Of a stretch of 51,441 bases of DNA, positions 2,762-44,675 are shown in pieces; the first letter of the stretch is position 1, and each line of letters starts with the position of its first letter. Source of the stretch: a virus; the IMG/VR virus record IMGVR_UViG_3300039448_000011, positions 1 through 51,441 of that record. One strand, 5' to 3'. The notes beneath the pieces were generated by a model, which ran no database searches, was not told the origin of the DNA, and saw nothing but the letters and a program-made list of their open reading frames with translations. A program made the translations under genes and the position numbers.

Positions 2762-2982
2762 CACTTTGGTCTGATGAATTCTGGGGGCTGCTCATGGGTA
2801 GCTATATATTGAGCATTATCATTGTTTTGTTTTCTGGCGGAGTACCCACAAAGTGGCAGACGTGGCCCATGGTTCACTTGGTTGCGCTCTCCTTTCCGAT
2901 ACTTGCAGTCGCCTCCTCCGTTCTGGTTGCCATCCCTGGCTTAATGGTTCTTGGGCTTATTGTGGCAGCCACCACTAGGTAG
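2758..2982 (+). CDS. Small membrane protein, 74 aa
   Basis: Starts in an ATGA overlap with the HTH gene, so it is translationally coupled to it. Two hydrophobic segments, about residues 10-28 (LLMGSYILSIIIVLFSGG) and 42-72 (VALSFPILAVASSVLVAIPG...), predict two transmembrane helices in the inner membrane. It overlaps the 3' end of the giant late gene by eight bases on the opposite strand. A holin or superinfection-exclusion role is possible but unsupported. Confidence 0.6.
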   Translation: MTLWSDEFWGLLMGSYILSIIIVLFSGGVPTKWQTWPMVHLVALSFPILAVASSVLVAIPGLMVLGLIVAATTR

Positions 2983-5900
2983 CATTAATAGCCCTTAGCT
3001 TGGGCGTCACCTTTTCTATGAGCTGGTTGCGTCTAAGTTTCAGTAGGTCAATCCGTCTACGCTTCTCTTCACCGCTCAAATCCTTATTCTTTTCGATGGC
3101 CTTGATTCGATTTCTAATATCCTGAAGTCTGCGGTTAACTTTATTCATTAGTTTTCTCATGCCTATCAGGTCGCCATTTTCTTCCATCACTTCAGCTTGA
3201 GAGGATAAATCTCCCTCTTCCCTGTAGCGCTTCAGGTCGGCATAGAGCCTATCCGCCTTGCGGATTGAGTCATAAAACAACTCTGAATCTTGTGTGTAGG
3301 TTGGACGGCCGGCATCGCGATAAAATCTACGAATCGGCTGGTATTCAGTCCAATATTTGGCGGGCTTGTCGCTTTCAGCAAGCTGGCCAATCACCATGTC
3401 CGGTATAGCAACACCCCAAGCGCCAACCTGACCAAGGAAGCCGCCAATCAGGTAGTCCATCTGGACTGGTGATAATGCATAGTTTGAGTCATCACCAAAC
3501 ACACCTGTAGAAATGGAGCTTAACCCTCTGGCTGCAAGGGTCGTATCTTCTTTTGTTCGATTCCCCTTGCTTAGGCGCTGCTGCCCCATGGTTTCAATCT
3601 GCCGCCCGGTGAACGAATCTTTGTTCGCATACACATCAAGCACTGGCTGAAACATTTGTGGCACCGGGCTAAACGAAAATGTCCCTGTTAGCATATGGCT
3701 AATACGCTCTCTGAATAACTTTCCTGTGGCGGTATCATCAACGGCCTGTTGAAGCAGGCGTTCAGTTATTGTCGCAATAGCGCCGACCTCAAACGGCTTC
3801 GGTATCGTAATTACATTATCGGTTCCGGGGATACGAAACCACCAGTACGAGTCTTTAAGCCAATCCGGTGCCTTCTTGTAGTCTTCGTCGTCTTGGTTGT
3901 GCAGAAACAATGCCATGGTCGCTGCAGACAGCGCACCAACGACCGCGGTAAATCTAGCCGCCGCTTTCTTATCATTAACACTGGCTTCGATTTTTCCTAT
4001 GCCGAGCATTTGCGCAGCGACTTTCGTTGTCGGCTTCACGCCTGAGCGGTAGAGTTTATCCAGACCTTGGAGTCGAGCGTTCAGAAACGGCACCACATCG
4101 ATCAAGAAACGAATTGCGGGCCATGCCCCGTGCGCTGAAAAGTCCATTAGATCTCTAGCCTGAAATGCAGAGTAGAGCGTACCCTTGCCAGCATCCTCAG
4201 ATTGCTTGAATGCCGCCGCGCGGTTTACGTTCTCAAGGCTGTTGTTCACATCTTGCCAGCGGTCCCAGCCTGCCTTGAGTGGTTTAAGCCCAAGCTTAAG
4301 TAGCTGCTTAGGATCTTTAATTACTTTGGCTCTGCGCATCTGACCGTCAATCTGGTATCGGATTGAGTCGGCATCTTCACCATAAACATGACCAAACGAA
4401 AACGCCCCACCCGTTGCCATTAGCCTTGCTCGCTCGTACCCGTTCCGATCCAGCAAGCCAAATGACTTCAGGCCCTGAGTGACGTTGCCAACCGCATTCT
4501 TACTCATGTCGGTCACCGCTACGGCGCTCATGGAGTCACGAAGCAGGTTGGCCACAACAAACTGAGGTGTACTGGTGGTTAGATTTGTAAAGGTTCTTTT
4601 AAACCAGCGCATTGCGGTCATTGCGTAACCATTCATTCCGGTATGGTTAAGGCTGGTCAGTGACGAATAGACCATGGGATCAACTATGTCGTACCACTCT
4701 TTTTCGCCATTACGAAGAATGAATGTGCTTTGCTTCTTGTCGCGCGCAGCCTCGGAGGTCTTCTCTGCAACACCAAGATCAACCGCGTTATCAACCCCTT
4801 GTTTGGCAGCCATGTTTTTCAGACTGGCATCAACCAGGTGGTGAAAGTTCATTAGGGTGTTTTGCAGGAGGTCATTTAGATTTTGAGTGCCGCCTTTCAG
4901 CTTCTTATAAGCTTGCTGGCGACTAAGCCCGCCCATCACTCTTGGGCCGGTCGTGTCTGTGTTGTCTTCATCCAACCGGTAAAATGGGACATAAAACTCG
5001 TTCGACCACATATCCCGATTTTCAGCAGTGATAACCCCGGATTCTTCAGCGATAGCTAACACGTCATCACGGTATTGCTGAAACTCCTTAAATACAGACT
5101 CGTAAAGCTTCGACCGTTCACGGCCGTCTTTTAGATTTCCGCCATCTAAACTCTTGAGGGCATCAATATCCTTCTGAGAGAACAGATTCTCTCGACCTTC
5201 CGCCATTAGCTTTTCGCCACGATTACCGGCGATCCAGCCCATGAAGCGCTCAACCTCAGCGCCAGAGCCAAGCTTATTAAGCGTATACATCAAACCTTGG
5301 CTGTCTTTTTTAACGTCGACAATGCCATCACCATTCATGAAGATTCGGCCAGCATTCATCATTGCCGATACGGCACCAGAGGCAGCATTGCTCATCTTGG
5401 CGCGCGCCCAAGCGGAGCGGGTTATATTCTCCTCACTGGTGATATTACCGTCGAGCAACTGCTTATCCAGCTCCATTAATCCGGCGTAGCGGTCAACCAA
5501 GCCCTGACGGACCTTTAGGCGCCAGTCATCCATAACGCCGCGTACCTTTTCAGCGGCGGATTCGATAGGGCCCTTTGGTCCTATTTTTGAAAGCGCCTCT
5601 TTCTGATCATTGCTAAGACTGCTATCACTAGCAAGGTCGTCAGATAGACGCATTAGAGCTGAATCTCCACGAGCCGGTTTGCGGTACATGGATTCACTGA
5701 TTTCAAAGTCTTTATTTCGCCCTTTATTTTCAATAAATCCAAAGCGCTTATAAAAACCAATGAGTCGTGATCGTGAAGTTGTTCCTTGAAAGTCATCCTT
5801 CAGCGCAGGGGATAGCGCAACAATTTTGGAGTTTTCATCGGCATAACCAATTATCATTTCTAGCGCCTTTGTGCCGATGCCGGAATTTCGATATTCTTTA

Positions 5901-8900
5901 TCAACTATAATCGAATCAAGTTTAATTTTTCCGCGAGACTCGTAAAGCGATATTGTTTTGATACCCTTTACGCCTTCAATCTCGCTTCGCAATTCGTCGA
6001 TATTTTTTGCATTGCCACCCTTGCCAACCGACGCAAGCGGCTTACCAGCCCCCTTACCTTCGTTACCGTACTTCTTAAGATGCCGTCTGCCCCTCTCGAT
6101 CAGTGCCAATGTATCGGTATCTGTCCAGTCGATATCAGGATTAATTCGGCGAATAAGGTCACGCAATGCAGCAATCATGCGACGCACAAGGCCCATCTTG
6201 CGGCCCTTTTCCGCCAAGTGTGCAATGTACTCCAGTACCGCAATGCGACGCTCTTCCTGATTATCGTAATTAAAATCATACCTTGAGATTTCTTTGTCGA
6301 TAGCGGGCTGGCCAGCGCGGTAATAAATCTCATCCAGCATGGCAAGGTATTCCTTACCACCGGCTTTTTCATTGGCCTTCAGGTAGCTAATGACACCACC
6401 ATGACCAATCACTTCATGGAGAAAAACACGCTTAGCATGGTGCTTGTCAATGATATTCCCGGCAACGATATATGTCTTTCCGGTTTTCGGATCATAAACA
6501 CCTTCGGATTGATTGAAGTGAGTACCAAGCTCAAGCTTTAATTTCCCCGGGAGATCTAGGCTAGTTTCAACAATCTCAATTGAACCCATCCCGCCAGTCA
6601 TATCCTTAAGCCATTCACGAACTTGGCTAGCGGTATTTTTTCGCTTAATACCAGAGGCGTTTCCAGTTTGTATTTGGCTTGAGAGAGATTTGATTTTTTC
6701 GTCTACATCTTTGGATAAAGATGCTAGTGCTTGCCCGTCAGGCTTATCAATTACAATAACCTTGGTATTGACGCCGGTAGGATTTAAAGATGATTTAAAT
6801 GCACCTTCAGGCAGAGACTGCTCCTCCGCGCCAAGTTCATCAAGCAACTCTCTGAATTTTTTATTTTTACTATTCTGTCTATCGCCTGCCATGCTGGACA
6901 CGATGGCGACAAGCCTTCCACCGGGCTTTAGGTGTTTATAGGCATGTATAACGTGGTCAATATCTTGATCCTTGCTAAATGGCGGGTTCATTAGAACTCT
7001 GTCGTACTCGGCCTTCGGTTCTAGCTCTAAAAAGTCATCACCAATAAGCTTGTGGCCTTTTTCTTTAAGAATTTCGCGAAGCTGGCCAGCAAGTTCCACG
7101 GTGTCTACGTCGGCACCACTTGCCTTCGCTTCATCTGCAAGTAAGCCATTGCCTGCAGAGGGTTCCAATACCTTCATGCCATCTTCAATATTGGCTAAGT
7201 CAGCAATTTCAACAGCTGTTGATTCCGGCGTCGGAAAGAAATCATTAAAGGCCTTCCGATTACCAAGCAAGGTTCTTTGTAGTGCCTGTTCAAGGTCGGC
7301 TAACTTGGTCTTGCGCTTCGGTCCTTCGGCCGATTTTTTAAGCTTGATAAATTCAGTTAAAACCGCCCGCAGAGTCGGAAGATTCTTAATTCCCATGCGC
7401 TCTAGCCGCTTGCGATTCATTGCCACATCATAGTGAGTGGTGTGCTTTTCTCCATGCTTAGTGACGAACTCTAATACCTTATCCCTCACTCTGGCGGGAA
7501 TGATAATGGGCTTTCCGTCTTTCGCGGAGCGAGCCTGAGCGCGCAATGCGTTCGCTGCTTGCTTAAATCCTTTGGTCGATTCCATTTTTTGAGCTAAGTC
7601 TTTAGCTGAATCTGGGTAATAGGTTTGCATTGGTAGCTGAGCAAACTGAACCATTTGCTCAGGTGTTACGCCTGACGCCCAGGAGCGGCGACTCATTCGA
7701 TCGCTCTCAAACAATTCCGGATCAGCATCGTAAATAAGTCGATTAGCCAGACTGTTAAGTAGCTCGATCTGTACTTTCTGATTAGCGTTTTTTAGGAGTG
7801 GATGGCCACCTTCTGAAATTTCCGCCATCACTTTGGCAAGTGTTTTTTGTGTCTCTGCTCGCGCAACTGCACCCGCTGCCATGTCGGCACGGCGCAGGGT
7901 GTTCGTATTCCGATCGGCGTTAAGGTTTTCGTCCGCATCCGACTTTAGCCGCTCGGCAATGTCACGCATTCTATCCGATGCGCGCTCAAGCTTTTGTTGT
8001 CTTCGCTCTTCGGATTTTTCGGATAGGTCGGCATCCTCGCCTTGCATCCAGTTCTTAAACTGATTGGCCTGTTCAATTGAGGGGAAGTAAAAGTTTCCGC
8101 GCCAATACCCACCGCTCATCGATCGAGCCATCGCGGCCGATTCTTTAAATTTATCCTTGCCTAGCCGATCAATTACCTTCACGTTAAAGATGATCTCACC
8201 GGTTTTGCCGTGAGTGCCCTCTTCCGGCTCACCCATTGCCACCGGCTCGTCAGATTGAAACCCCTTTCTCACATCCTCAATTGGAGTGTCACTCATCGCC
8301 TTTTCTGCAATAAGACGATCATACTGAGTTCGCTGTTCTAAACTCAGAGACTCGAAACCCCGAAGCTTTATAGCGTCCCTAAATTCTTCGAGTGTCTGCG
8401 GGTCCTTTAGTCCGTCAATCTGTTTTTTTCGCTCAGCTATAGCAGCGTCAATATTTTCCTTTCGCTCTCTGGCATACTCGGCAATAGTTGCATCAGTCAA
8501 TGAATCAATGTGATCTCGCGTCATCTGGGCGATGTCAGAGCCATGAGTCCATGAAATAAACACATCGCTATTACCAATAAACCGATATTTCTGAACTAGG
8601 CCGTCATAGGCCATGTTCACAAGTCTGTCTTTTTTCGTATCGGAGAAAACGTGACCGGTGGTCATCGGCTCAAGGTCAGCTTTCGTTAATTTGCGCAGCT
8701 CGGACTTGCTGGCATCAGGGTCAGTAACCAGCGCCTCAAAAGTATCGGATAGCTCCGCCCTAGTAACGGCCTCACCGCCACTTAGGCGTTTCATAACACT
8801 GTTAATTCCTTCGTGTGCCGGAAGCTGTGCAGGCTTTGTAGGTTCAGCATCAGACTCAGCCTCAACCTCAGGTTCGGCATCAGGCCCAAAATCGTCGTTC

Positions 8901-11900
8901 ACTTCGATGGTGCTTGCTCGTGGCGCGTTGGAAATATCGGCATTTCCAGCCACTGCCGCACCCTCAGGAATAGGATGAAGCTCAAAGCCACCGCTCACCT
9001 CGACCAACTCATAGCCCGCGTGACTCTTTAAAGCCTTGCGGGCAGCACCTTTGCTTTTGTACGGATTGCCAGCGGTGTTGCGAATGATTGGCCTGTCAGG
9101 CTTGGCTTCGGGTGCTGCATCTTCAATTGCGTACTCCTCACGCAACGCTTTCCATGCTTGGCGGTTGACTCCTTCAGGAGAGTCGCTGTTCAGCTGATTG
9201 AATTCCTCAAAGCTCAGATTTGCTTGAGCCTCATCGACAAGCGTCTCGTATTCTTCGGAAAGTTTATCAAGCGCATCTTTATAGCCCGGCGATGATTTCT
9301 TTAGGCCGGACTTGGCGGCCATTTTCTTAAGGTAGGCTGTTTTGGTGGCGGTGAGAATTTCTGGAAGGCCAGAACGAGAAACCCCGGCATTGGCCGGGGT
9401 TTTTTCATTACTTTGACTTAATCCGCCTGACTTTATCCAGTCATCGACCTTTTCAACCAAGTGGTTTGTAAGATCAACAAATTCGTTATACCGCCAGTCG
9501 TGACGCTTTCCATAAGGGCCAACTATTTTATCCTTGCCTCGATCGGCGTCATTAATGTACATATTGGCGTCAGCGAAATCATCAAGGTCTTCCCAGCCAG
9601 AAACCTTGGCAGGGTCGATAGTGCCGGATTCCACATCGTTTAGAATTTCTTTCTTGGCCACTTCGATGCGACGGTCGATAATTCCTTGCAACTCAGGGTC
9701 ATTGAAATCCACCCCCTTTCCATTCGTATATTCATTTGCGGGGGAGGTTATCCGATCATCATCCGTTAAACCATTACCTGTTTTTTTATTTGCGCTGGCA
9801 ACGACCTTGCTAATTTTCGTTGTCGGCTCCTTGTATTCGGCTGGCTTCTCAGCTTTAACGATAGTTCCAAAATCATGCCAATTGCCATTAATCTTGGCCT
9901 CTTTTCTTGATTGGGATATACCCTCAATCACACCACCCTTAAAGAAAGTTTTTTGCTTTTCGCTTTTAACGGCCTTCGCATACTCGCCGCGCTCAAATCT
10001 CTGCTCTATCGGCTCGCCATTTACCACTTTGTAGTTGGAAAATGAATCATTCCCTTTTTGGCTTGGCTCTGCTGGAGCGCTAAGTAGATCCTCTTGCCCT
10101 TGAGAAGCGGCAACGTCAGCAGTACGGCCAGAGCCAGACAGTGCAAAACCTTCCACCTCGGCATCAGCCTTTGCTTTTTTTGCTGCTTTCTCTTCTGCCT
10201 TAACCTTTTCTTTTTCTTCAGACTGACGCTTAGCCTCCATTTTCCGAAGGTCGTCTTCAGTATAAGAGCTTAAGAGTTCTTCTTCGGGTTCTGGCTCTTT
10301 GCTTTCTGCTCTTGTCCACCCTGGATCTTCTCGACCGGCGGTTTCTTTTTCCAGCGCTCGTTTAGCTCCAGCGCTTTCAACACTTGTGGGTGTAACTTCT
10401 TGGCCATTTTTATGTGCCTCGGTAAATACAAATAATCTTAAGCTAAATTCAACCGGGTCGTCGCCAAACACTTGAGCGATTTTAGTCACTACAGGTTCAG
10501 GCAATCCAGCATCAAGCGCTTCTTTAATATCGTCAGCAAGTGCCATACCGACACCATCAATACCATCAACCGCCGAATAGCTCTCTTCAGTAAAGCGCGT
10601 TTCCATGCTTGAGGCAATCCGCTTAATTCGATTGGCGTAACGATTCGGCACAGGGTTGGATTCGGCAAAGCCAGCCTCTTGAGGTGATAGTTCGCCTCGC
10701 ATTACTTTTCTGAATTTCGTTATTTGCTCTCTTTCAGGTATGGCATCGGTGCGTGCGTAATCGTTTCGCTCGTCGGTAATGACATCAAGTGCATATTTTA
10801 CCGCTCTCGCTTCGATTGGCTTCAGAGGCTTAGCGTTAACAGCCTTATCAATCGCTCGCTTAAATCCTTTTACGGATATCCGCTTTACATTCTCCGGAGC
10901 TTCCTGAAACCATGCGGGGTTTTGTGACGGCAAAAAATCAAAATACTTTTTATCGGGATTGTTTTTTGCCATCGGGTCCAAAGGAATTGTGGACATGCCG
11001 CCTTTGTATTGGATTTCGCTACCCATCTTCTCAAGCCGCCCCCGGTGCCATGTTCGCAATAAGCGCCCGTCATCAAGTCCTTTTGGCATCTTGAGGTTTC
11101 GTATTGCATCACGGTCACTATCGTTAAGTGACTCTCCCTCGCGAACATCCATCGTAGGTGGCAGCTCAACAACCTCGGGCAGCTCTGGGGTTGGCTGCTG
11201 ATCAATGGTTATTTCTTCTGCGGGGATAAACCGAACATCGCCTTTTTCTGGTAAGTCGGGGACAACTACTGGCGATTGACCTTGCTGCTCAGTAAATGTC
11301 TGCTCAGTAACTTTCTTGGCATTCTGTGCAGCTTCCGTTGGCGGCATATAGTAAGGCGCATCAACGGTAGAAGGTATCGAACGCGAAGGGTCAGGCTCAA
11401 AATCTGAAACCTCTGGCCGTGCTGCTTCCATTTCACTAAAGGTGTCAGCGTCACGCTCCATCGTAACTTCAGCCCGTGGTATGCCTTCAATGTACTCACC
11501 AACCGCAATGTACTCAGCTGGGAATTGAGCTGATGGCTCAGGGCTTTGCGGGTCAGGCTCACCCATCTGGGTGACTTCGCGGTAAATCTTCAGCGCACGC
11601 TCATTGAATCGCTTGGCGGATTCAGTGTCGCCTTCATTGGCGAACTCTTCAGCCATTTCAAAATTACGCTTGGCTGCACGAAGACGAACGACTTCATCTT
11701 CAAATCCTTGTGACTCTGCAATATAGATATCGTCATCAATACCCTTGTACTGCTGGCGCTCGGCCTTGATCTGGGATACGGCATCGACTAGCGATAGCTT
11801 TGGTTGTTCTGGCTGTGCTGGTTGTTCCTGCGCCTGAGGATCAACACCTTGCTCCTCGGCCTGAATTTCGGGCTTCTCTACGGGTGAGCCTTTAAAGGCA

Positions 11901-12991
11901 GCGCCCATGCCACCGCCCATGACGCCACCCATGACGCCTTCGTTTAGGGCATTAGTAACAACGCCCTGCATTGGGTCTCTATTGGTATCAGCCTCTTCAT
12001 TAATCATCGCACGGTTAATGCCATGCTGCTCCATGCCGCCCTGAATGGTCTCGGTACCACCTTGCGCAACGGTTTGAGCCAGTGCGTTCTTGATTCGACT
12101 GCCGGAGCCTGCACCACGAATAATGCGGTCAATATAATGGCCGCCGATCGCATCAAGAGTGAGATTGGTAATAACAACGGCAGGGTCTGTCTGCACTGCT
12201 GTGCTCACGCGCTCGGCCAGTGTTTTTCTGGCCATCGATCTAATCTCTCCAACACTATAGCTTGGCTGATCAACGCTTAATGTGTGAAAGATTTCGCGAA
12301 ACGCCTCCGACTCATCCAACTCAGATGATGACAAATTCATCACTTCTTCTTGGGCCTGAAGGCCCATCTGGCCACCAGTAATGCCAGCGCCAGCAAGTGC
12401 TTGGCCGGTGGTACCTGCGCTAGCTCGAATTACATTGGCGGCATATTTCGCGGCAACATCAGGCGTCATACCCTTGCGCAATCCGGATTTAATAAGCGCC
12501 TTAGTTGCAACCTTGGCGCCTACTTTCGCCGCCGCACCGGTAAGACCAAAACCTGTAACGACCTGCCCGGTTAGCTGGCCAGCCATTTTGCTAATCTGAA
12601 GACCTACAGATTCAGGATCAGTCCACGCCTCGCCAAATTGAGTGTCGCCATTCTCATCATCCTGAAAGAACTGCTTACTCATGGCTTCTTGGCCAGACGG
12701 GCTCATTTGATCAATCTGGCCTTTCGACCAGTTATTAGTGGCCTGAGCTAAATCGCCAAATGTTTCCGATCCAGACAGCGTAGAAACAGTTTCCGCCATC
12801 CCTGCTGCGCTATCACCGACGCCAGACTGAAAGGCATCAACTGCATCACCACCAAAACCCTGCTCATTGCCTTGCTTCTGCTCTTCGGCATCAGCTGCGG
12901 TTTTGTTGTCTTGTATGTGACTGGTTAAAGGAGGGGCATTTCTACCAAGCTCAAACATCTGCTCAAGCGATACTTTATTCTCATTACTCAT
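2975..12991 (-). CDS. Giant ejected polyvalent protein, 3338 aa
   Basis: One unbroken frame covering a fifth of the window, last gene of the late operon, directly after ejection proteins. Rough layout: 1-380 Gly/Ala-rich with hydrophobic patches; 380-620 Pro/Glu-rich linker; about 940-1000 charged coil; 1000-1900 several unknown domains; 1900-2070 a methyltransferase fold with VLEPSAGNGLL (motif I) and MNPPFS (about 2001-2006, motif IV of N6-adenine enzymes); about 2190 FLHEVIGHGG, a metallopeptidase-like motif; 2310-2440 a GNAT domain (YRNSGIGTKALEMIIGYAD); 2450-3338 a long helical region with TPQFVVANLLRD, like the LPD-type domains of phage polyvalent proteins. By analogy with P1 DarB and T7 internal virion proteins it is probably packaged, injected with DNA, and protects it. 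The activities are inferred from motifs. Confidence 0.8.
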   Translation of the reverse strand: MSNENKVSLEQMFELGRNAPPLTSHIQDNKTAADAEEQKQGNEQGFGGDAVDAFQSGVGDSAAGMAETVSTLSGSETFGDLAQATNNWSKGQIDQMSPSGQEAMSKQFFQDDENGDTQFGEAWTDPESVGLQISKMAGQLTGQVVTGFGLTGAAAKVGAKVATKALIKSGLRKGMTPDVAAKYAANVIRASAGTTGQALAGAGITGGQMGLQAQEEVMNLSSSELDESEAFREIFHTLSVDQPSYSVGEIRSMARKTLAERVSTAVQTDPAVVITNLTLDAIGGHYIDRIIRGAGSGSRIKNALAQTVAQGGTETIQGGMEQHGINRAMINEEADTNRDPMQGVVTNALNEGVMGGVMGGGMGAAFKGSPVEKPEIQAEEQGVDPQAQEQPAQPEQPKLSLVDAVSQIKAERQQYKGIDDDIYIAESQGFEDEVVRLRAAKRNFEMAEEFANEGDTESAKRFNERALKIYREVTQMGEPDPQSPEPSAQFPAEYIAVGEYIEGIPRAEVTMERDADTFSEMEAARPEVSDFEPDPSRSIPSTVDAPYYMPPTEAAQNAKKVTEQTFTEQQGQSPVVVPDLPEKGDVRFIPAEEITIDQQPTPELPEVVELPPTMDVREGESLNDSDRDAIRNLKMPKGLDDGRLLRTWHRGRLEKMGSEIQYKGGMSTIPLDPMAKNNPDKKYFDFLPSQNPAWFQEAPENVKRISVKGFKRAIDKAVNAKPLKPIEARAVKYALDVITDERNDYARTDAIPEREQITKFRKVMRGELSPQEAGFAESNPVPNRYANRIKRIASSMETRFTEESYSAVDGIDGVGMALADDIKEALDAGLPEPVVTKIAQVFGDDPVEFSLRLFVFTEAHKNGQEVTPTSVESAGAKRALEKETAGREDPGWTRAESKEPEPEEELLSSYTEDDLRKMEAKRQSEEKEKVKAEEKAAKKAKADAEVEGFALSGSGRTADVAASQGQEDLLSAPAEPSQKGNDSFSNYKVVNGEPIEQRFERGEYAKAVKSEKQKTFFKGGVIEGISQSRKEAKINGNWHDFGTIVKAEKPAEYKEPTTKISKVVASANKKTGNGLTDDDRITSPANEYTNGKGVDFNDPELQGIIDRRIEVAKKEILNDVESGTIDPAKVSGWEDLDDFADANMYINDADRGKDKIVGPYGKRHDWRYNEFVDLTNHLVEKVDDWIKSGGLSQSNEKTPANAGVSRSGLPEILTATKTAYLKKMAAKSGLKKSSPGYKDALDKLSEEYETLVDEAQANLSFEEFNQLNSDSPEGVNRQAWKALREEYAIEDAAPEAKPDRPIIRNTAGNPYKSKGAARKALKSHAGYELVEVSGGFELHPIPEGAAVAGNADISNAPRASTIEVNDDFGPDAEPEVEAESDAEPTKPAQLPAHEGINSVMKRLSGGEAVTRAELSDTFEALVTDPDASKSELRKLTKADLEPMTTGHVFSDTKKDRLVNMAYDGLVQKYRFIGNSDVFISWTHGSDIAQMTRDHIDSLTDATIAEYARERKENIDAAIAERKKQIDGLKDPQTLEEFRDAIKLRGFESLSLEQRTQYDRLIAEKAMSDTPIEDVRKGFQSDEPVAMGEPEEGTHGKTGEIIFNVKVIDRLGKDKFKESAAMARSMSGGYWRGNFYFPSIEQANQFKNWMQGEDADLSEKSEERRQQKLERASDRMRDIAERLKSDADENLNADRNTNTLRRADMAAGAVARAETQKTLAKVMAEISEGGHPLLKNANQKVQIELLNSLANRLIYDADPELFESDRMSRRSWASGVTPEQMVQFAQLPMQTYYPDSAKDLAQKMESTKGFKQAANALRAQARSAKDGKPIIIPARVRDKVLEFVTKHGEKHTTHYDVAMNRKRLERMGIKNLPTLRAVLTEFIKLKKSAEGPKRKTKLADLEQALQRTLLGNRKAFNDFFPTPESTAVEIADLANIEDGMKVLEPSAGNGLLADEAKASGADVDTVELAGQLREILKEKGHKLIGDDFLELEPKAEYDRVLMNPPFSKDQDIDHVIHAYKHLKPGGRLVAIVSSMAGDRQNSKNKKFRELLDELGAEEQSLPEGAFKSSLNPTGVNTKVIVIDKPDGQALASLSKDVDEKIKSLSSQIQTGNASGIKRKNTASQVREWLKDMTGGMGSIEIVETSLDLPGKLKLELGTHFNQSEGVYDPKTGKTYIVAGNIIDKHHAKRVFLHEVIGHGGVISYLKANEKAGGKEYLAMLDEIYYRAGQPAIDKEISRYDFNYDNQEERRIAVLEYIAHLAEKGRKMGLVRRMIAALRDLIRRINPDIDWTDTDTLALIERGRRHLKKYGNEGKGAGKPLASVGKGGNAKNIDELRSEIEGVKGIKTISLYESRGKIKLDSIIVDKEYRNSGIGTKALEMIIGYADENSKIVALSPALKDDFQGTTSRSRLIGFYKRFGFIENKGRNKDFEISESMYRKPARGDSALMRLSDDLASDSSLSNDQKEALSKIGPKGPIESAAEKVRGVMDDWRLKVRQGLVDRYAGLMELDKQLLDGNITSEENITRSAWARAKMSNAASGAVSAMMNAGRIFMNGDGIVDVKKDSQGLMYTLNKLGSGAEVERFMGWIAGNRGEKLMAEGRENLFSQKDIDALKSLDGGNLKDGRERSKLYESVFKEFQQYRDDVLAIAEESGVITAENRDMWSNEFYVPFYRLDEDNTDTTGPRVMGGLSRQQAYKKLKGGTQNLNDLLQNTLMNFHHLVDASLKNMAAKQGVDNAVDLGVAEKTSEAARDKKQSTFILRNGEKEWYDIVDPMVYSSLTSLNHTGMNGYAMTAMRWFKRTFTNLTTSTPQFVVANLLRDSMSAVAVTDMSKNAVGNVTQGLKSFGLLDRNGYERARLMATGGAFSFGHVYGEDADSIRYQIDGQMRRAKVIKDPKQLLKLGLKPLKAGWDRWQDVNNSLENVNRAAAFKQSEDAGKGTLYSAFQARDLMDFSAHGAWPAIRFLIDVVPFLNARLQGLDKLYRSGVKPTTKVAAQMLGIGKIEASVNDKKAAARFTAVVGALSAATMALFLHNQDDEDYKKAPDWLKDSYWWFRIPGTDNVITIPKPFEVGAIATITERLLQQAVDDTATGKLFRERISHMLTGTFSFSPVPQMFQPVLDVYANKDSFTGRQIETMGQQRLSKGNRTKEDTTLAARGLSSISTGVFGDDSNYALSPVQMDYLIGGFLGQVGAWGVAIPDMVIGQLAESDKPAKYWTEYQPIRRFYRDAGRPTYTQDSELFYDSIRKADRLYADLKRYREEGDLSSQAEVMEENGDLIGMRKLMNKVNRRLQDIRNRIKAIEKNKDLSGEEKRRRIDLLKLRRNQLIEKVTPKLRAINAT
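9381..9405. terminator. Terminator-like hairpin inside the giant gene
   Basis: ACCCCGG CATTGG CCGGGGT followed on the plus strand by T6; on the coding (minus) strand the stem is followed by TTTCTC. It encodes EKTPANAGVS near residues 1196-1206, a peptide typical of a translated terminator. It may be the relic of an intergenic terminator at a gene fusion point. Rho-independent termination from an antisense transcript is also possible. Confidence 0.45.
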
Positions 12992-35998: not shown

Positions 35999-36300
35999 TG
36001 ACTGCTAACGCTCACTGAATAATCAACGTTCGTCACCGTCGGAGTAACAACAACGTAATCAATTGCGCCCGCGTCCAGTTGAATCATCCCGTTTTCAGAG
36101 ACTATGTTTTCAGATTCGGCGCCAGGGTTAACTCTATTTGTTGAGCTATCAAAACCGTAGGGCACAACAGTAATCGTAATATCGCCAGTCGCGCCGGAGA
36201 AATACAATGTGTGCAGTGACGATCCGTTTGCAACCTGAATTAGTTGCTCACCCTGAAGCCCGTTTTTGATTTGTTTCTTTTGGATATCAGGCATTGTCAT
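35995..36300 (-). CDS. Hypothetical virion protein, 101 aa
   Basis: Almost entirely beta-strand in character (SSLHTLYFSGATGDITITVV, IQLDAGAIDYVVVTPTVTNV), a Gly/Thr/Val-rich small sandwich. Overlaps the fibre gene and the gene before it. It is likely a fibre-associated or structural protein rather than an enzyme. No named family. Confidence 0.5.
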   Translation of the reverse strand: MTMPDIQKKQIKNGLQGEQLIQVANGSSLHTLYFSGATGDITITVVPYGFDSSTNRVNPGAESENIVSENGMIQLDAGAIDYVVVTPTVTNVDYSVSVSSQ

Positions 36301-36532
36301 TGCTCCCGCGAGACTGTCTGTCAGTCAACACTGCAATATCCTTGTCGTGTTGACTAATTATTGATGCGTGCTCATCAAGTCGTGTCTGATGTCGAATGTG
36401 CTGCTCGTCATGCGATGAGAGTTTTGATGAAACGATGCCGTAAATGCGTCCAAGTCCAATGAGCTGCATAGCAAATGTTGCGAACAACCCTCCAACCGCT
36501 ACCAGCGTATTTGTATCGACGTTTTCGAGCAT
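36287..36532 (-). CDS. Membrane-anchored coiled-coil protein, first gene of the late operon, 81 aa
   Basis: Start at ATG 36532 (MLENVDTNTLVAVGG). One transmembrane helix (about residues 8-32, TLVAVGGLFATFAMQLIGLG) followed by a coiled coil (SSKLSSHDEQHIRHQTRLDE and onward). This layout fits a holin-like XhlA or an i-spanin-like protein, but there is not enough to decide. It begins right after the terminator at 36549-36581. Confidence 0.5.
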   Translation of the reverse strand: MLENVDTNTLVAVGGLFATFAMQLIGLGRIYGIVSSKLSSHDEQHIRHQTRLDEHASIISQHDKDIAVLTDRQSRGSNDNA

Positions 36533-36548
36533 GCTAAATCCCAGACGC

Positions 36549-36581
36549 AAAAAAGCCCGGATCAGATTTAACTGCCGGGCT
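36549..36581 (-). terminator. Strong rho-independent terminator before the late genes
   Basis: Minus strand AGCCCGG, 14-base loop, CCGGGCT and TTTTTT. It lies just upstream of the first late gene and about 70 bases after the proposed start point of a candidate late promoter, a layout like lambda pR'-tR'. It should block late expression unless RNA polymerase is modified. Confidence 0.8.
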
Positions 36582-37295: not shown

Positions 37296-37514
37296 ATGAT
37301 TAAATATAGTGTTGTGAGCGAAAAACAGGATGTTGGCGGCGATATTATCGAAATATTTAGTGTTGTTGACGACGATGGAATGCCAATCAATGACGGGCAT
37401 TTTACCGTTGAGTCAGATGCAAACTACGTATCAGAGAAAATGAATACAGGTAAATTTGGCGGAGACGATGTGTCGAATTTATGCAAATTAATGGATAGCT
37501 GGATAATCTGCTAG
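37296..37514 (+). CDS. Small acidic accessory protein, anti-defence candidate, 72 aa
   Basis: RBS GGAGAA upstream. Strand-rich acidic protein (MIKYSVVSEKQDVGGDIIEI, FSVVDDDGMPINDGHFTVES) with a helical end (CKLMDSWIIC). Size and acidity are like many DNA-mimic or anti-CRISPR proteins, though this is not diagnostic. Its stop codon touches the 3' end of the CRISPR-like element on the other strand, so the element's terminator hairpin lies immediately after the gene. Confidence 0.6.
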   Translation: MIKYSVVSEKQDVGGDIIEIFSVVDDDGMPINDGHFTVESDANYVSEKMNTGKFGGDDVSNLCKLMDSWIIC

Positions 37515-37602
37515 AAAAAATCCCCACATAGTGGGGAACGGAACTACTTAGAAACAGACATTCTATGTCTATGTGGTTCATCCCCGCAAAACGGGGAACT
37601 GC
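37515..37602 (-). CRISPR. Two-repeat type I-E-like element (repeat, 32-nt spacer, repeat)
   Basis: Read on the minus strand: repeat 1 (37602-37575) is GCAGTTCCCCG TTTT GCGGGGATGAACC, repeat 2 (37542-37515) shares GTTCCCC...TGTGGGGAT with it, and they are exactly 60 bases apart, leaving a 32-base spacer. Type I-E repeats are 28-29 nt of the form GAGTTCCCC...GGGGATAAACCG with 32-nt spacers, so length, stem, GTTC/GAAC ends and the ATGAACC 5' handle all fit. Repeat 2 ends GGGGATTTTTT, so it doubles as a terminator. No cas genes are nearby. It could feed or jam a host Cascade. Confidence 0.6.
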
Positions 37603-37631
37603 ACCCTCACGGGCACGCTCATAGCAACATC

Positions 37632-37659
37632 AATTTACATGGTTTTTTTAATCTGTCAA
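37632..37659 (-). promoter_or_regulatory. Promoter for the CRISPR-like RNA
   Basis: Minus-strand -35 TTGACA (37659-37654) is perfect; -10 TAAATT (37637-37632) follows after 16 bases. Predicted start near 37625, giving a transcript of about 110 nt that ends at the repeat 2 T run. The site overlaps the start region of the oppositely directed gene at 37671. Confidence 0.5.
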
Positions 37660-37670
37660 TGGGTAATAAA

Positions 37671-38096
37671 ATGAAAAAATCAACGTTAGATAAGTATTTG
37701 GCATTCGCCAGCCCTCTCACTGGCTATGGCCACGACTTCTACTTTAATGGTTATATCGCTGGCCTCAATGCCTACTATGCGCGCCTAAAGCAGCTAAAAA
37801 CGCTGGATAAACACGAAGCCGAGCTTGAGCGTGCTCGCATGGTTTATCCGACCGTTGAGTCGGCAGACGGTATCTCAGACGGGCTCGATGGCCGCCCACC
37901 TTCGGGTTACGTCCAAGAGCAAAGCCACTTAGCCGGGAATGATCATGCTGTTAAAGATGCCGAACCACGCGATAATCGTGTGATCATTCGCTGCAGTACG
38001 ACAAATAAAACGCGCTGGGATGCCCACAAAAAACCATCAGAATCCCGCGCTGATTTTATCACCCGTGTGCTGAATGCCTACTGCGACAATCAATAA
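37671..38096 (+). CDS. Probable ribbon-helix-helix regulator, 141 aa
   Basis: Start ATG 37671 (37659 is an in-frame alternative with no ribosome site). N-terminal helical region (KYLAFASPLTGYGHDFYFNG) and coil; C-terminal residues about 103-141 (RVIIRCSTTNKTRWDAHKKP, then SRADFITRVLNAYC) fit an RHH/Arc-type DNA-binding end: a strand then two helices. Being beside the accessory genes and the CRISPR-like promoter, it may be their regulator, comparable in position to Aca proteins, though Acas are usually HTH. Confidence 0.5.
   Translation: MKKSTLDKYLAFASPLTGYGHDFYFNGYIAGLNAYYARLKQLKTLDKHEAELERARMVYPTVESADGISDGLDGRPPSGYVQEQSHLAGNDHAVKDAEPRDNRVIIRCSTTNKTRWDAHKKPSESRADFITRVLNAYCDNQ

Positions 38097-44598: not shown

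Positions 44599-44675
<77 letters not shown>

Follow-up and report, generated by a model that had tools for sequence, protein, structure and literature searches.

The window (the whole 51,441-base stretch of viral DNA analysed here) carries podovirus-type head genes, a CI-like repressor, RecE/RecT and SSB. The element under study fills the 144-nt gap between the end of a 72-aa open reading frame (ORF) at 37514, the base adjoining the T-run of the second repeat, and the start of a 145-aa ORF at 37659. Read on the minus strand from 37659 to 37515, it consists of a promoter-like pair of hexamers, a leader hairpin, a first repeat, a 32-nt spacer and a second repeat running into six T residues (Table 1). 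A preliminary description had listed a TTGACA -35 hexamer, a leader, a repeat, a 32-base spacer and a T6-ending second repeat with a period of 60 bases, and we found all of these in the sequence; its 28-base repeat length holds only when the preceding GCA is counted, the string that it printed being 25 nt long.

Table 1. Features of the putative RNA gene and of the neighbouring ORFs (window coordinates).
Feature	Position	Strand	Basis and remarks
-35-like hexamer TTGACA	37654..37659	-	Sequence; shares bases with the earliest potential start codon of the divergent plus-strand ORF
-10-like hexamer TAAATT	37632..37637	-	Promoter scan; spacing of 16 from TTGACA
RNA start (predicted)	~37626	-	
Leader hairpin GUGCCC-GUGA-GGGUGC	37601..37616	-	RNA fold; at the predicted 5' end
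Repeat 1, type I-E-like, GTTCCCCGTTTTGCGGGGATGAACC	37575..37599	-	Exact pattern match; ends in the handle GGGGATGAACC
Cas6e cut in repeat 1 (predicted from sequence)	between 37582 and 37581	-	
Predicted 8-nt 5' handle AUGAACCA	37574..37581	-	GAAC predicted to pair with GUUC at 37544-37541
32-nt spacer CATAGACATAGAATGTCTGTTTCTAAGTAGTT, with AGACAT-AGA-ATGTCT	37542..37573	-	Sequence and target searches
Repeat 2 fused to intrinsic terminator, GTTCCCCACTATGTGGGGAT	37515..37539	-	GTTCCCC-ACTATGT-GGGGA-T6; terminator scan, 7-pair stem and T-run
Orphan ORF, 135 aa	36851-37258	+	No Pfam, PHROG or NCBIfam match
Orphan ORF, 72 aa	37296-37514	+	No Pfam, PHROG, NCBIfam or phage tblastn match
Orphan ORF, 145 aa (141 aa if from 37671)	37659..38096	+	Divergent from the RNA; no Pfam, PHROG, NCBIfam or phage match

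The TTGACA/TAAATT pair is the sole 10/12 site and the best promoter-like site between 35000 and 40000, a region in which promoter-like sites as a class are no commoner than expected by chance (8 against 9.7 in shuffled sequence). Over 25 nt the repeats share 76% identity, repeat 2 being the diverged one, and repeat 1 has no T-run. Both arms and the handle of repeat 1 are exactly those of type I-E, and only the loop is one base short compared with canonical I-E repeats. The pattern GTTCCCC-N7-GGGGATGAACC gave this one exact match, while dinucleotide shuffles gave 0.01 matches even when three mismatches were allowed.

In type I-E systems Cas6e cuts after the repeat stem, leaving an 8-nt handle ahead of a 32-nt spacer, after which comes the hairpin of the following repeat. 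Here the predicted Cas6e cut and the GTTCCCC of repeat 2 lie 42 nt apart (8-nt handle + 32 + 2), the canonical spacing. The period is 60 rather than 61 because both hairpins are one base shorter, such that 60 minus the 18-nt hairpin gives the same 42 nt as the canonical 61 minus 19; among neighbouring repeats of our viral set a period of 61 occurred 193 times, far above any other period. The original view that the format is that of a type I-E crRNA except for the shorter loop is upheld.

The 111-nt RNA from 37625 to 37515 (minus strand) has a predicted folding energy of -44.9 kcal/mol, against -28.7 ± 3.5 in shuffled sequences (z = -4.63; 0/200 as stable). The AGACAT-AGA-ATGTCT palindrome pointed out in the preliminary description is real, and the folding of the spacer alone is marginally unusual (permutation p = 0.04); the 42-nt unit including the handle exceeds every one of 25 GC-matched natural units in stability. 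The handle GAAC is predicted to pair with the spacer-end GUUC with a probability of 0.99, a level reached by 5 of 216 natural units. This pairing was first noticed in the window element, after the fact, and the single independent test is a viral contig of the same layout described below (L004), where the pairing probability is 1.00, as high as in only 3/216 natural units. Strong handle pairing is not shared by another viral contig, L112, or by the host CreR units.

CreRs are crRNA-like RNAs that let Cascade repress its own cas operon (PMC12737573, PMC12948488). When ~85,000 species genomes were scanned for a repeat followed by a terminator-repeat, 11 loci were found, 8 of which had a gap of exactly 42 nt. 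Six of the loci (L113, L114, L115, L118, L120 and L122) are flanked by cas3 and cas8e in type I-E operons, as determined by tblastn with E. coli Cas proteins taken from L124. The layout of the window element with its 42-nt gap recurs in five of the six, the gap in L115 being 34 nt. In 6/6 the spacer has a match in the cas promoter region nearby, flanked by an AAG PAM and agreeing at 12-14 of 15 seed positions; because of these matches and their position beside cas8e, we regard the six elements, on sequence grounds, as cas-regulating RNAs (CreRs). The anatomy of the window element matches that of such a CreR, but the element resides in a phage, with no cas operon in the window. In two of the host units (L118, ~4475-4570, minus strand, and L122, ~2698-2784) the first repeat reads GGTTCATCCCC...GGGGATGAACC, a palindrome that would pair the handle away and make these candidate handle-locked CreRs. 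A scan of viral contigs for such palindromic repeats gave one match, which was unrelated and terminator-like and was rejected.

The layout also recurs in viruses. When IMG/VR was scanned for the short-loop repeat, six stretches were returned; in one of them, L004 (IMGVR_UViG_3300038312_000355), a repeat, a 42-nt gap and a terminal hairpin with a T-run reproduce the arrangement of the window. Two further contigs (L111 and L112) also show this arrangement, but their first repeat either differs or is truncated where the contig ends. Four pattern matches (L008, L110, L116 and L117) look like chance or ordinary terminators and were set aside. A broader scan of IMG/VR with canonical I-E repeats gave 101 stretches, comprising 32 with a solitary repeat, 17 with a strict repeat and a degenerate partner, 19 with two strict repeats and 33 with at least three; a repeat fused to a T-run was present in only one of the 101 (L046). 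L004 also has a type I-C-like repeat, GTCGCGTGTCGCCCTCCGGGGCGTGGATTGAAAC, on its minus strand upstream of 2911, whose end lies ~12 nt ahead of the I-E-like repeat-terminator unit, possibly making one RNA against two CRISPR subtypes. A separate contig (IMGVR_UViG_3300017963_000668; L002 and L006) holds short-loop I-E repeats in two pairs, spaced 48 and 59 nt apart, and in the crRNA from at least one of these pairs the spacer would be much shortened. Two-repeat elements whose spacers measure ~22 nt were seen in one viral stretch (L012) and in two host loci beside cas8e (L229 and L231), and guide units truncated in this way may be frequent among CreR-like RNAs.

As to the genomic setting, tblastn with E. 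coli Cas proteins found no cas genes in the 51-kb window, in agreement with the preliminary statement that none are near. The 145-aa ORF has no relatives in viral_contigs. Phages with 78-82% terminase identity were found, and no orthologous RNA is present among 80 terminase-matched loci. Two loci that span the junction (L132 and L134) lack the element and hold a different ORF between ssb and the gene matching window positions 36287-36550, and because a different gene occupies the same junction, the RNA and the three orphan ORFs look like an exchangeable accessory cassette, a common site of counter-defence genes. Searches with the terminase, RecE, replication protein and SSB returned mixed, mostly gammaproteobacterial, relatives, and RecE had no close match across 369 sampled genomes (the class of L123's genome). 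Rfam gave no match at the gathering score, and the result is uninformative, an E. coli K-12 iap-cas2 control stretch likewise giving none. Elsewhere in the window, positions 44599-44675 encode a phage tRNA-Arg(TCT); CreT toxins guard CRISPR systems by sequestering tRNA-Arg(TCT) (PMC12737573), and the phage copy could blunt such a guard, a speculative idea given that this phage tRNA is common. Positions 2975-12991 encode a polyvalent protein of 3338 aa, which has an LPD38 domain and matches acetyltransferases and methyltransferases weakly; it is probably an internal virion protein that is injected.

The search for a spacer target that had been suggested at the outset was run on genome, viral and plasmid sequence and returned no I-E-compatible target. 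With every sixth base left free to reflect I-E tolerance, spacer positions 1-26 had no match in genome_contigs (~85,000 genomes) and positions 1-23 had none in viral_contigs (IMG/VR). BLAST of the spacer against phages and plasmids gave weak and partial matches only, which were rejected as targets. No AAG-flanked seed match is present within the phage itself (the 51-kb window) or inside 30 sampled cas8e loci, and in the 369 sampled genomes seed matches occurred at the level of the reversed control, none of them near cas genes. A missing target is nevertheless weak evidence, because most spacers have no known target and the searches were only partly mismatch-tolerant.

Taking these findings together, our best explanation, which we would put at about an even chance, is that the element is a self-contained gene encoding a single type I-E decoy crRNA that would act much like an RNA anti-CRISPR. 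The phage would transcribe an RNA of ~110 nt from its own promoter, ending at the hairpin of the second repeat. Cas6e of the presumed host, which would have to carry a type I-E system, would bind and perhaps cut repeat 1, and would also bind the terminal hairpin, after which no handle follows. The product would be an RNA of the canonical 8 + 32 + hairpin layout, lacking a known target and having its 5' handle folded back onto the spacer end; it would occupy Cas6e, and probably Cas7 or the whole of Cascade, without productive targeting, thereby protecting the phage. A decoy had already been proposed in the preliminary description, and the lack of a target in the collections searched and the handle folded into the spacer uphold that idea. 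The hidden handle would mimic RacrIF1, an inhibitory RNA without a usable handle that forms a Cas6f-Cas7f complex with no Cas5f or Cas8f (PMC10651486). Even an aimless assembled Cascade would still help the phage, since a non-targeting crRNA alone likewise weakens immunity (PMC10651486). The I-C-like repeat beside the same layout in L004 is what a module directed at several CRISPR types would be expected to carry. Also in favour are the exact I-E repeat and handle, the 42-nt spacing ended by a terminator-repeat, the stable fold, the lack of cas genes in the window, the position within a cassette of orphan ORFs, and the engineered precedent in which a T-run-fused repeat ends transcription and its RNA enters Cascade (PMC4499155).

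Against a decoy stand the use of the same architecture by host genomes for guided repression, the restriction of strong handle pairing, itself a post hoc observation, to units other than L112 and the CreRs, and the lack of a relative of this phage with an orthologous RNA among the 80 terminase-matched loci. An alternative, absent from the preliminary description, is that the phage carries a CreR, i.e., a working guide that would take host Cascade to a promoter with which its seed is partly complementary; the host cas promoter would be the most useful target, as cas expression would then be shut off. The identical layout between cas3 and cas8e in five host loci and the spacer match to the local cas promoter region in all six, L115 included, argue for such a guide, as do the diverged repeats, which are usual in ectopic mini-CRISPRs of the CreR kind (PMC9458426). 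However, the window has no cas operon, searches for an AAG-flanked seed match were negative in the phage, near cas genes in the 369 genomes and in the 30 cas8e loci, and the folded handle and spacer would hinder guiding; we therefore rate a phage CreR as a credible minority reading, less likely than the decoy crRNA. Were it true, the host's own Cascade would be made a repressor of the cas operon or of another promoter, in effect an RNA-guided transcriptional anti-CRISPR. A match to CATAGNCATAGNATGTC with an AAG flank beside a host cas8e would favour the CreR, while a matching host repeat without a promoter match would favour the decoy.

It is also conceivable, though in our judgement unlikely, that the element is an ordinary virus-borne mini-array with one spacer, whose crRNA would target a competing phage or plasmid. 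Two-repeat viral arrays are common (19/101 double strict, 17/101 strict and degenerate), and virus-borne arrays targeting related viruses have been documented (PMC6858448), but no target for the spacer was found in genome_contigs, viral_contigs, phages or plasmids, the handle is predicted to be paired, and repeats of only 76% identity are at odds with the host-identical repeats of published viral mini-arrays. Least probable of all, and very improbable in itself, is that two ordinary terminator-like hairpins resemble repeats by chance, or that the element is the dead relic of a captured array. Repeat 2 is indeed a good minus-strand intrinsic terminator; however, an exact handle and two exact arms (0.01 expected), a first repeat without a T-run, the exact 42-nt spacing and the recurrence of the layout in unrelated contigs and genomes all speak against such an origin.

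The closest described relatives of a decoy crRNA are the Racrs, phage RNAs mimicking CRISPR repeats, which include RacrIE1 and RacrIE2 and of which the I-E members have been shown to work (Camara-Wilpert et al. 2023, PMC10651486). Like them, the window element is a phage-encoded, intergenic repeat mimic with no cas genes nearby and a predicted Cas6 binder, and it resembles the repeat of a known subtype. The earlier comparison with solitary-repeat RNA anti-CRISPRs does not strictly apply, because two repeats are present, the second 60 nt downstream of the first and acting as a terminator, which gives a full crRNA layout. SRUFinder drops mini-arrays, as well as any candidate whose 100-bp flanks contain a >70% match to the repeat (PMC10651486); it would discard the window element, which therefore lies outside the published Racr survey by design. 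As that survey discarded two-repeat elements, it would have overlooked any class of phage genes for complete decoy or regulatory crRNAs, and the 42-nt gap, the repeat fused to a T-run and the handle pairing offer search rules for further cases.

With CreRs the element shares two diverged repeats, a 32-nt spacer, a terminal repeat with a T-run and the 42-nt gap, whereas CreRs adjoin a host cas operon and match its promoter; the window has no cas genes, and no such promoter match turned up in the window, near the seed matches of the 369 genomes or in the 30 cas8e loci. Virus-borne mini-arrays, some of which target related viruses (PMC6858448; reviewed in PMC11656645), are similarly viral, have two repeats and one spacer and would use host Cas proteins, but they differ from the window element in its diverged repeats, its terminator-repeat and its spacer, for which no target was found. 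In the pG8_crRNA unit, built in E. coli in 2015, a repeat hairpin fused to a T-run is the intrinsic terminator of a working crRNA gene whose RNA enters Cascade; unlike the window element it is artificial, its unit-sized crRNA is transcribed directly and its spacer is a targeting one (PMC4499155). The layout, called a new design in the preliminary description, is thus not unique, being present in other viral contigs, in host CreRs and in this engineered unit; what looks new is the use of a repeat-spacer-terminator-repeat layout by phages. It joins two separately described RNAs, Racr and CreR, and makes testable the question of whether Cascade is jammed by phage decoy crRNAs or reprogrammed to silence cas genes.
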